IMG/VR virus record: IMGVR_UViG_3300042383_000066
Coordinates: 1 to 28,251 of that record
Length of the DNA: 28,251 bases
Strand: one strand, 5' to 3'
Origin: a virus
Below, one piece after another: positions 21,071 through 23,738 of the stretch (the first letter of the stretch is position 1; every line of letters begins with the position of its first letter). Below the pieces are notes generated by a model that did not search any database, was not told where the DNA came from, and saw nothing but the letters and a program-made list of their open reading frames with translations. Made by a program: the position numbers and the translations under genes.

Positions 21071-21304
21071 TTAAGTGATCTGCGGTGATGTAGCAACCAC
21101 CTCTCGCATCAGCCGTTCGATATACCACTTCGCCTTGCCCAAGTCTGTAGCGCCACCCTTCTCACGCCAGCGCCAAAGATATTTGATCGCGTTGGCTGTG
21201 CAGATGGCCTCAATGCCGCTTAGGTTCACCGTAGCAGCCGCCAGAGCGTCTATGCATTCAACATCGCCTTGGCGGTAGTGGTTTGGATTTATGTGATCTG
21301 TCAT
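21071..21304 (-). CDS. DUF3310 protein
   Basis: This 77-residue protein starts MTDHINPNHYRQGDVECIDA and contains CTANAIKYLWRWREKGGATD and LGKAKWYIERLMRE. The pattern NP-x-HY...G-x-xE-x-I-D-x...G-N-x-x-KY-x-x-R-x-x-xKGG-x-xDL-x-KAxWYL is the DUF3310 domain, common in phage replication regions and thought to relate to nucleotide kinase-type proteins, but without known activity. The start has a strong GAGGTG ribosome-binding site. It lies directly downstream of the iteron-like repeats and 9 bases upstream of the HNH gene. Confidence 0.85.
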   Translation of the reverse strand: MTDHINPNHYRQGDVECIDALAAATVNLSGIEAICTANAIKYLWRWREKGGATDLGKAKWYIERLMREVVATSPQIT

Positions 21305-21332
21305 TGCTCACCTCATTTAATGCCGCACCGCT

Positions 21333-21448
21333 ATCACCCTATCACCCTGCACCTTAAGGTGCAGAGGGTGAGGGAGGGTGAGGTTAGCGGCTTTTTGCCC
21401 CCTTTTTCACCCTAACCCTCACCCTCACCCTAGGGTGACTTAGGGTGA
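21333..21448. repeat. Cluster of nine TCACCCT / AGGGTGA heptamers: candidate replication origin or operator array
   Basis: Within 116 bp the heptamer TCACCCT occurs five times in direct orientation (21334, 21342, 21407, 21419, 21425) and its complement AGGGTGA four times (21365, 21375, 21432, 21442). The first two lie in a tandem of ATCACCCT, and the last four form a dense block that covers the stop codon of the primase-helicase gene (GHPKSP-stop). The middle holds a perfect 18-bp palindrome (21347-21364) and a T-rich stretch (21391-21407). Iterons next to a RepA/primase-type gene are typical of theta-type origins. An operator for a repressor is the main alternative. Confidence 0.7.
21347..21364. 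promoter_or_regulatory. Perfect 18-bp palindrome inside the iteron cluster
   Basis: The sequence CTGCACCTTAAGGTGCAG is self-complementary over its full length and is flanked by CACCCT on the left and AGGGTG on the right, so the symmetry continues imperfectly outward. It has no U-tract on either strand, so it is a poor intrinsic terminator. A dimeric protein-binding site or an origin element is more likely. Confidence 0.6.
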
Positions 21449-23451
21449 CCATTTTTAGCCATTATCATCGCGCCACGGTGCGTTGGATCGGTGAAAATCC
21501 AGCCGTGTTCCGTTGTCTCAATCATGTCTGATATGATCAGCGTTCCGATAATTTTGTCCGTATAGGACGGATTGAGCATGTTATCGACAGTGCGTTTTGC
21601 GTTGCCATCTTTTTCTAGCGCCGCGCGCAAAAATGAACGGGACAGGTAAGGCATCCCGTCACGTTCCTCTGCGCCGCTTTCCCACCAAGCTTTTTCCCAG
21701 CGTTTGCGAAATTGCGCCAGCTTACTGTCGGCCTTTGGCGTTTGTTCCGGCGCTTCGGCTGGCATAACCACAACGCTTTTGACAGGTTCGCCATCCTCAT
21801 CAACCCAGCCTGGAATAACCACTTCGACAAGATCAGCGTGCAGGAAATGATCGGGTTGCCCGTCCTTCATTTTCTTGTTTACGATCTTAAGCGGCTTGCC
21901 TGCTTGCACGCTATATTCCACGTCAAGCGCGCCTTTCCATGCTGATGAGCCTCGCGCACGGTGCTGGGCTTCATCACTCACGCCAGTGTGGTGAACGAGA
22001 ATAACGGTGCAGCCAAATTCTTCCTTAAGACCGTCTGCGGCTTGGATCATGGTTCGCACGTCTTGTGCGCTGTTTTCGTCACCGTTCATAAAGCGGTGGA
22101 CGGTATCGACCACAATCAGCGATGGCGCTTCGCCAACACCTCGCACAGCTTCCAGCACGCGGCTATAGCCCTCTGGCGTGTTTAGATCACAGCCCGTCTT
22201 TGACACCCACAGATTGATATCTTCCGGTCGGTAATGCGCTGCCCATGCTGCCAATCGGCGCTTGATGCCGTAATGGCCTTCGCCGGCTAGATATATCACC
22301 GCGCCGTGTCGTTTGACTTTGTTGCCGTGCCATTCCGGCAGGCTTGACGCTATATGCAAACACCAATCTAGCACCACAAACGATTTGCCGGCACCGCTTG
22401 GCCCATGAACCATTGCCAGTGCGTGTTGTTCAAGCCAGCCTTTGATGATCCATTTGGGTGGCGCTTGATCGGCCATTAGCGCATTGGCTTTTAACAGCCA
22501 GCCATCTTGTGTGGGCGGCAGCAATATGGCTTTTAGATCATTCCCAGCCGCCCGGTAATCGTTGGCGTCCATGCCTTCGATCGGCACTCGGACAACCCTA
22601 ACGCCATATTTAGCGGCGGCTTGATCGGCATATTTAAATCCGATCCCGCCTTTGTCATGATCTGCAACGACCACAATGTCGGCCAAGCTGCCGCGCTTTT
22701 CCCGCAACGCCTTTGCAACGGCTGGCAGGTTGCTGGCGCTGTAAGCAATCGCGCAAGCCTGGCCCGTTTCCTCTGTGATCGTGGCTGCGGTGGCGAAGCC
22801 TTCGGCAATGTATATCGTGCCGCCGTTGTCATCACCGACGATCCATTGCGCCTCAGTGGCCCGCCCGCTGGCGTGATAAAGTTTGCCGCCATCGCCGTCG
22901 ATATATTGCAGACTGACAAGGTGGCCAGCTGGGTCATACATAGGCAGGGCAAGCCGCCCGTCACCTGTAACGCGCGCGCCGTTGGGGCTGACACCCTTTC
23001 GCACCAGATACGGATGCCAATCAGGCGCACCAGCAAGGCTGGCCCAGATGGTCTCCGCCACGTCTGCAACGGCTTCCTGAATTTTGGCCTTGGCAGCATC
23101 GCGCGCCTTGACGGCTTCAGCCAGCCGTTTGGCCTCTGCCATGCGCTCTGGGATCGTCAACTCACGGCCAATGTCTGCGCGGAATGTGTTATCTATGGCC
23201 GCCCGCCAGCACCCAAACCGCCCAGCCGGAACGCCATCGGGAAACACGCAATACCAGCCCGATGTGTCATGGCCTGGCTTGCCTTTGGTGTAGCTGTCAA
23301 AGCGGTGCAGTTTGCCATCAAGTTTAATGTTAGCCGGCGGCCTGATGCCCGCCTGTTCCATCGCGGCGGCAAGCTGCACCTCTGGCGGGTCAAACTGCGG
23401 CGCTGCTGGTGGCGACCACGGGCCATCTAGAATTTTAGTTAGATCACTCAC
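21430..23451 (-). CDS. Primase-helicase (Toprim plus RepA-like AAA_25 helicase)
   Basis: The protein has 673 residues. The GTG start at 23451 overlaps the HTH gene's stop (GTGA). The N-terminal ~100 residues contain FDSYTKGKPGHDTSGWYCVF and AGRFGCWRAAID, the region that precedes Toprim domains in phage and plasmid primases. The Toprim domain shows Glu217 in TIYIAEGFATAATI and the DxD at 264-266 (IVVVADHDKGG). The helicase half has Walker A GPSGAGKS at 350-357, Walker B SLIVVDT at 444-450, and VILVHHTGVSDEAQHRARGS, the sensor-like segment of RepA/AAA_25 hexameric helicases. The C-terminal ~150 residues include an additional helical domain. It should prime and unwind DNA at the phage origin. 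The iteron cluster covers its 3' end. Confidence 0.92.
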   Translation of the reverse strand: MSDLTKILDGPWSPPAAPQFDPPEVQLAAAMEQAGIRPPANIKLDGKLHRFDSYTKGKPGHDTSGWYCVFPDGVPAGRFGCWRAAIDNTFRADIGRELTIPERMAEAKRLAEAVKARDAAKAKIQEAVADVAETIWASLAGAPDWHPYLVRKGVSPNGARVTGDGRLALPMYDPAGHLVSLQYIDGDGGKLYHASGRATEAQWIVGDDNGGTIYIAEGFATAATITEETGQACAIAYSASNLPAVAKALREKRGSLADIVVVADHDKGGIGFKYADQAAAKYGVRVVRVPIEGMDANDYRAAGNDLKAILLPPTQDGWLLKANALMADQAPPKWIIKGWLEQHALAMVHGPSGAGKSFVVLDWCLHIASSLPEWHGNKVKRHGAVIYLAGEGHYGIKRRLAAWAAHYRPEDINLWVSKTGCDLNTPEGYSRVLEAVRGVGEAPSLIVVDTVHRFMNGDENSAQDVRTMIQAADGLKEEFGCTVILVHHTGVSDEAQHRARGSSAWKGALDVEYSVQAGKPLKIVNKKMKDGQPDHFLHADLVEVVIPGWVDEDGEPVKSVVVMPAEAPEQTPKADSKLAQFRKRWEKAWWESGAEERDGMPYLSRSFLRAALEKDGNAKRTVDNMLNPSYTDKIIGTLIISDMIETTEHGWIFTDPTHRGAMIMAKNGHPKSP

Positions 23452-23624
23452 GCTGCCACACCACCCATCAAATAATCTGACAACGCCTTCATCACGTCAT
23501 ATGTCGGATTAGCTTTGCCAGTCTTGATCCGGGCAATCGTTGACCGATGCAAGCCTGTTGCCTCTGCAACAATGTCCATGCGCCTATCCCGAAGCGCAAC
23601 CGCAATCTCGTCTAGGGTTAACAT
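23448..23624 (-). CDS. Small HTH (XRE/Cro-like) DNA-binding protein
   Basis: The protein has 58 residues, from ATG 23624 to TGA 23448, with AAAGGTGG as ribosome-binding site. It starts MLTLDEIAVALRDRRMDIVA and has the helix-turn-helix EATGLHRSTIARIKTGKANP, in which the ATGL-x-x-x-T-x-x-RI-x-x-GK pattern is that of XRE/Cro regulators. It ends in VMKALSDYLMGG. It is the first gene of the minus-strand arm, coupled to the primase-helicase by a GTGA overlap. Its promoter region is shared with the plus-strand operon and contains a 9-bp inverted repeat, so it probably regulates the divergent promoters. Whether it is a repressor, a Cro-like protein or an early switch factor cannot be told from the sequence. 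Confidence 0.85.
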   Translation of the reverse strand: MLTLDEIAVALRDRRMDIVAEATGLHRSTIARIKTGKANPTYDVMKALSDYLMGGVAA

Positions 23625-23738
23625 CAATCCACCTTTTCGCTGTTATGTGCTTTTTATGCTTTACAGCCGCCGCCAAGCCCTGTAAAGCCCCAATCACACC
23701 GCGACTGGATTAGCCGACTGCGGTGCTGGAGAAAGACA
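23625..23738. promoter_or_regulatory. Divergent intergenic region between the two transcription arms
   Basis: This is the only place where transcription diverges in the window: minus-strand HTH/primase genes to the left, plus-strand recombination operon to the right. It must hold two start signals. It contains the 9-bp inverted repeat, an A/T-rich stretch (GTTATGTGCTTTTTATGC, 23642-23659) and the ribosome-binding sites AAAGGTGG (minus) and GGAGAAAG (plus). No clear consensus -10 box is seen. Confidence 0.65.
23658..23688. promoter_or_regulatory. 9-bp inverted repeat in the divergent promoter region: candidate operator
   Basis: GCTTTACAG (23658-23666) and CTGTAAAGC (23680-23688) are exact inverted copies separated by 13 bp, in the 114-bp region between the HTH gene and the plus-strand ATPase gene. 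The half sites face each other with about two helical turns between centres (22 bp), as for a dimeric or tetrameric repressor. TTTACA with 17-bp spacing to TAAAGC could also act as a poor -35/-10 pair on either strand. No stronger promoter is obvious by eye. Confidence 0.6.

Follow-up and report, generated by a model that had tools for sequence, protein, structure and literature searches.

In phage P4 alpha, a primase, an SF3 helicase and a C-terminal origin-binding domain are joined in one protein, and the sites that belong with it are the ori/crr iterons. The winged-helix fold of this origin-binding domain is cited in PMC4234260. SaPI Rep, as summarized in PMC7581432, uses its helicase C-terminal domain to recognize short iterons located immediately downstream of the gene that encodes it, and the same helicase/iteron design has been measured for Cch2/ori of SCCmec in Staphylococcus (PMC7581432). 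For ORF904 of plasmid pRN1, replication requires a region of roughly 100 bp that directly follows the primase-helicase gene, and this region still functions when moved (PMC4234260). In Vibrio PLE RepA and ICP1 Odn, the initiator's binding domain and the iterons of the origin have both diverged, and a replication module made up of the two is exchanged (PMC8263062)—a precedent for selection on origin identity, with the differences that the initiator there is of the RepA_N kind, without helicase or primase, and that the iterons are about 30 bp long. In RSF1010, which encodes the helicase RepA, the origin is opened by RepC (PMC8965321).

The window analyzed here, 28,251 nucleotides of an IMG/VR virus record classed as linear, contains a primase-helicase gene with a patch of inverted short repeats at its end. 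Our best reading is that array and helicase work as SaPI Rep/ori and P4 alpha do, with another helicase and an uncatalogued domain. The genes and domains concerned are these:

21430-23451, minus strand: primase-helicase, 673 aa, with Toprim_3 (residues 213-302), an AAA_25 RecA-type helicase (321-492) and a C-terminal domain
21433-21735, minus strand: the C-terminal winged-helix domain, residues 573-673, proposed as array reader from its model (pLDDT 90), fold class and co-variation with the word
21574-21594, minus strand: predicted recognition helix RTVDNML, residues 620-626, of which D623 and N624 track the word
23448-23627, minus strand: Cro/XRE-like ORF, 59 aa, overlapping the helicase start
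21071-21304, minus strand: DUF3310 gene, next gene distal to the array, different among relatives

Distal to the array, DUF3310 is accompanied by HNH, terminase and portal genes. Divergent from the helicase and XRE genes are those for a Sak4-like annealing protein, an ssDNA-binding-like protein, a Cas4-like exonuclease and a cytosine methylase.

The helicase, a relative of phage primases and helicases, matches AAA_25 in Pfam (2.2e-40) and has no D5/SF3 match there; a search of NCBIfam gave no convincing relatives. Its closest solved counterpart, and sole PDB profile match, is RSF1010 RepA (1g8y, E 2e-6), with which it shares a homologous RecA-like AAA_25 core, but which has neither primase nor winged-helix parts. 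Because Pfam assigns it AAA_25 and Toprim_3, and its only PDB profile match is RSF1010 RepA, the enzyme is like a SaPI Rep without being one: iterons lie directly downstream of its gene and are probably read by its C-terminal domain, but the helicase is RepA-like rather than of the Rep/Cch family, and carries a Toprim primase part in the same protein. Similarly, it appears from the model to unite primase, helicase and C-terminal winged helix in one protein, as P4 alpha does, but the helicase is RecA-type and not SF3 (D5-like), and no sequence relation was found between the two C-terminal domains.

Searches of Pfam and PDB for sequence relatives of the window's C-terminal domain found none that convince, whereas the SaPI/Cch2 systems differ in this respect, and the domain alignment alone is too little conserved for searching a sequence collection. 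The model (mean pLDDT 90) has a helix-strand-helix-helix core followed by a two-stranded wing, as winged helices do, and its top structural neighbors are mostly winged helices, each individually weak (Foldseek E at least 0.086, Z below 7). The P4 origin-binding domain is not among the best 50 structural matches listed, which excludes nothing.

The array itself consists of nine exact heptamers in 115 bp, five TCACCCT and four AGGGTGA, as originally counted, and is laid out as two dyad units:

21334-21448, no strand: heptamer array, nine exact copies, orientation along the helicase strand ++---++--
21334, 21342, 21407, 21419, 21425: starts of TCACCCT
21365, 21375, 21432, 21442: starts of AGGGTGA
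21407-21448, no strand: helicase-proximal dyad unit, five copies (21407, 21419, 21425, 21432, 21442), overlapping the last helicase codons and stop
21334-21381, no strand: distal dyad unit, the palindrome with two copies to either side (21334, 21342 / 21365, 21375)
21347-21364, no strand: perfect 18-bp palindrome CTGCACCTTAAGGTGCAG, dyad of the distal half
21387-21402, no strand: inter-unit spacer GCGGCTTTTTGCCCCC, retained in relatives with another word (L006-L010)
21322-21331, no strand: distal flank GCCGCACCGC (helicase strand: GCGGTGCGGC), similar in relatives (..GATGCGGC)

The gene does run into the array, as first noted: the protein ends ..HPKSP*, in codons built from the word. The palindrome, originally put in the middle of the patch, is real, but since it falls between copies 2 and 3 it centers the distal unit rather than the whole. 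A near copy, TAACCCT, lies inside the array at about 21413. Neighboring copies on the same strand are often 10 bp apart, approximately one helical turn, and some are 6 or 8 bp apart. The heptamer occurs 12 times in the window against 1.7 expected, a number reached in 0/100 shuffles, and nine of the 12 occurrences are within these 115 bp; enrichment over shuffled sequence, one of the proposed checks, is thus confirmed. When all 7-mers are counted within 120 bp, the densest cluster reaches 9 copies in the window and 3-4 in 100 dinucleotide shuffles. Several clustered copies of a short word beside a candidate initiator gene, as in iteron origins, are therefore present.

Among 79 viral loci whose helicases are related, only five very near ones (L001-L004, L011; 95-99% identical) have an AGGGTGA array. 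A pattern scan for three AGGGTGA at 10 bp spacing found 7 contigs. Most other relatives have an array of similar size in the same place, built from a different word. Within 350 bp of the helicase stop, where relatives' arrays were sought, 128/159 loci have a 6-mer whose count exceeds that in every one of 100 shuffles. More than 20 different words occur in about 220 loci, differing by lineage: GGTAAC, CGGAAC/GGGAAC, TGACCCT, GCCCCCT, GGCCCCT, CGCCCT, GGTACA, GGTTCA, CGGACC, CGTACC, CGTAAC, CGTATC, GGGACA, AGGACA and CGGATA among them. Cultured phages are included: Idiomarinaceae phage 1N2-2 (GGTACA, 11 copies), Alteromonas phage PB15 and XX1924 (GGTTCA, 13 and 12 copies, respectively) and CGphi29 (GGGACA, 6 copies). 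The database records of these relatives carry no origin annotation at the array sites, and a literature search, of partial coverage and no proof of absence, found no description of this helicase family's array. While the words change, the architecture stays: the orientation string ++---++-- is common, 10 bp is the commonest copy spacing, and a palindrome of different sequence, often with the core CCTTTAGG / CCTATAGG, sits at the same spot. This double dyad with its palindrome distinguishes the array from SaPI/Cch2, and its repeated words distinguish it from the pRN1 origin, likewise directly downstream of a primase-helicase gene, which is a structure-conserved stem-loop without recognizable iterons (PMC4234260).

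In two relatives the array lies farther downstream, at 1.0 and 1.7 kb from the helicase stop (L154:7016-7118 and L165:7720-7853), and the word in both is still that expected from the helix, which speaks against any function limited to the mRNA 3′ end. The first of these has, in addition, a separate dense repeat upstream of the helicase, GCCAGA/GAGCCA, with 22 copies in about 290 bp (L154:1683-1975). In L061 and L151, the helicase frames are broken before or within the C-terminal domain and the array is intact; the breaks may be real or sequencing errors. A further set (L163, L164, L166, L168-L180) keeps the helicase and has no detectable array near it, with a different recognition-helix region, which speaks against the origin reading. 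For L163, L164, L166, L168, L169, L171-L174 and L176-L180, no array lies within 350 bp of the stop, and the region they share is longer, for example GTKSKTWRNILREDG.

The word follows the helicase tail. L005 and the window protein are 95-100% identical over residues 1-570 and 27% identical in the C-terminal domain; at the DNA level, 95% identity stops at the domain border, and the word is GGTAAC in the one and AGGGTGA in the other. In L007, tail and array have both been replaced, and 96% DNA identity resumes on the far side. Relatives that keep the helicase and lack the array were expected to count against the original prediction, and taken literally they exist, L005 (89% identical) for one. 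The heptamer is missing from such relatives because array and C-terminal domain were replaced together, however, and the architecture persists with another word. On FastTree trees, parsimony requires 43 word changes for the first 571 residues compared with 28 for the C-terminal domain.

The residues that co-vary with the word lie in the third main helix of the domain model, and helix predicts word almost without exception: RTVDNM goes with TCACCCT, RT[VI]RN with TGACCCT, RTIEND with GCCCCCT, RTAEN with CGCCCT, RTLRNR with GGCCCCT, RTAKNK with GCCCCT, SA[KR]QY with GGTAAC and SAKVY with GGAAC. At helix residue 4, R/K accompanies G and D/E accompanies C in 99/99 loci of unambiguous register, a count that leaves out words of ambiguous register, AGGACA and GGAAC among them. 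Chemically, both pairings are familiar: guanine with arginine or lysine, cytosine with acidic residues. Seven supported independent contrasts, on a tree built without the C-terminal domain, all agree with this rule (p = 0.016). Q/V at the same residue accompanies GGTAAC/GGAAC in 48/48 loci. Exceptions to the pairing of R/K with G are L103 and L238, in which K goes with A. When C-terminal domains sharing 60-90% identity are compared in pairs, the residue at position 52 is different in 88% of the 217 pairs with different words versus 0% of the 312 with the same word.

Because the word classes had been defined after looking at the data, the rules were fixed before new loci were tested. Sixty new distinct loci were held out, success meaning that the expected word was among the top three 6-mers. 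Thirty-two fit a rule, and 31 of these had the expected word (the miss was L215), figures to be read with the knowledge that the new loci are partly dependent on the old ones and that many are of known helix types. Recognition of the word by the replicon's own initiator, another mark of an iteron origin, is indicated indirectly in this way, by co-variation, module swap and held-out prediction.

Origins have other signatures, too. The density of exact DnaA boxes (TTATNCACA) is 2.07 per kb in the surroundings of the arrays and 0.06 per kb in the remaining 1.06 Mb, a 35-fold difference. Such boxes accompany 63/141 of the relatives' arrays, typically two before and one after, with many different words, and set these arrays apart from SaPI/Cch2. 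The window has no exact DnaA box, and one-mismatch sites there are at or below chance. Its cumulative GC-skew minimum, to which the original prediction had pointed as a check, is not at the array but at about 23700, at the divergent promoter between the helicase operon and the recombination genes, and because it coincides with this promoter it is uninformative regarding an origin. The proposal that the patch is an origin thus draws its support mainly from the relatives, from their flanking DnaA boxes and the helicase domain that co-varies with the word, and as a whole it is upheld in part.

Kept in relatives while its word changes in step with a few residues of the enzyme’s tail, the patch is very probably an origin read by the enzyme itself. 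We consider it highly probable that the array is the phage's replication origin, bound by the primase-helicase through its own C-terminal winged-helix domain, and that domain and word evolve as one module. The reader, originally taken to be a protein not yet known in this family, is by this co-variation most probably the domain in question. The computations show the array itself, its conserved architecture, the co-variation of word and helix, the module swap and, in relatives, the enrichment of DnaA boxes; from there we infer physical binding, ring assembly and a start of replication at the array, along these lines. The recognition helix would read the heptamer directly; the copies, about one helical turn apart and facing around two dyads, would allow helicase rings to assemble, with assistance from host DnaA in many relatives; and the helicase, once loaded, would prime replication. 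A change in the helix would have to be matched by change in all copies, and domain and word would be exchanged together by recombination.

Co-variation shows recognition, not purpose, and the C-terminal domain might instead bind the array to control transcription of the surrounding genes. Initiators often autoregulate as well, and the gene that comes after the array, DUF3310 in the window, is read from the same strand. But the array lies behind the helicase gene and not ahead of it, relatives do not all have the same distal gene, the region has promoter-like sites only at chance level with none at the array, and exact DnaA boxes are enriched 35-fold around the arrays. An autoregulatory operator in place of an origin is accordingly unlikely in our estimation; one alongside it may exist.

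Considerably less probable is that the helicase mRNA ends in a structured RNA or a transcription terminator. Folded with DNA parameters, the strand reaches -38.8 kcal/mol, well below its shuffles (z -7.4), and the plus strand at 21425-21448 has a stem and T run resembling a terminator. Any inverted copies of one word will fold, however, so the hairpin is best regarded as a by-product of the inverted words. Folding requires neither identical copies within each locus nor their joint change, the word of a hairpin need not track residues of a DNA-binding domain, and the array can be 1-1.7 kb from the helicase gene. Rfam, searched with the array, gave no match.

More improbable still is that the array serves as operator for the small Cro/XRE-like protein whose gene lies just upstream of that for the helicase. 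This is a DNA-binding protein of the same operon, but the window and L003 share the word and yet are unlike in the upstream stretch. The XRE protein was also tried as array reader among the relatives, and rejected, since for XRE pairs at least 80% identical the words are different in 104 cases and identical in 50. Chance or neutral tandem duplication, to which some short same-strand spacings (6 and 8 bp) might hint, can be set aside almost entirely, given nine copies, in both orientations, where shuffles reach 3-4, and an architecture conserved while its sequence changes.

If the array is the origin, as we think, an anonymous patch of repeats becomes the probable origin for a widespread group of phages; the rule predicts the origin word from a helix of seven residues, and offers a route to locating origins in many uncultured phages. 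In the cultured phages 1N2-2 and PB15, the origin would by this reading lie at 34.2-34.4 kb and 19.75-19.98 kb, respectively. Natural near-identical pairs—the window and L005, L019 and L020 with V/Q in the helix, the CGGACC and CGTACC types—make DNA recognition and the evolution of origin identity testable by small swaps. More tentatively, word and helix might form a replication identity tag, a near-deterministic residue-to-base code in which the array word switches in step and diversity is kept by selection. Such selection could come from nucleases directed at origins, from satellites, or from phages that infect the same cell and have incompatible origins. Should this possibility prove true, it would amount to a natural protein-DNA recognition code of more than 20 word/helix pairs, readable and predictable from sequence.

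The relatives L268-L272 have a very different C-terminal region, with the words ACCCCC or CTAACA downstream. In a more distant AAA_25 relative (L108:3123-4500), ten copies of CGGACA and a long perfect palindrome of TGTCCGGTTT units lie just downstream, which suggests that the design reaches beyond the helicase family studied here.
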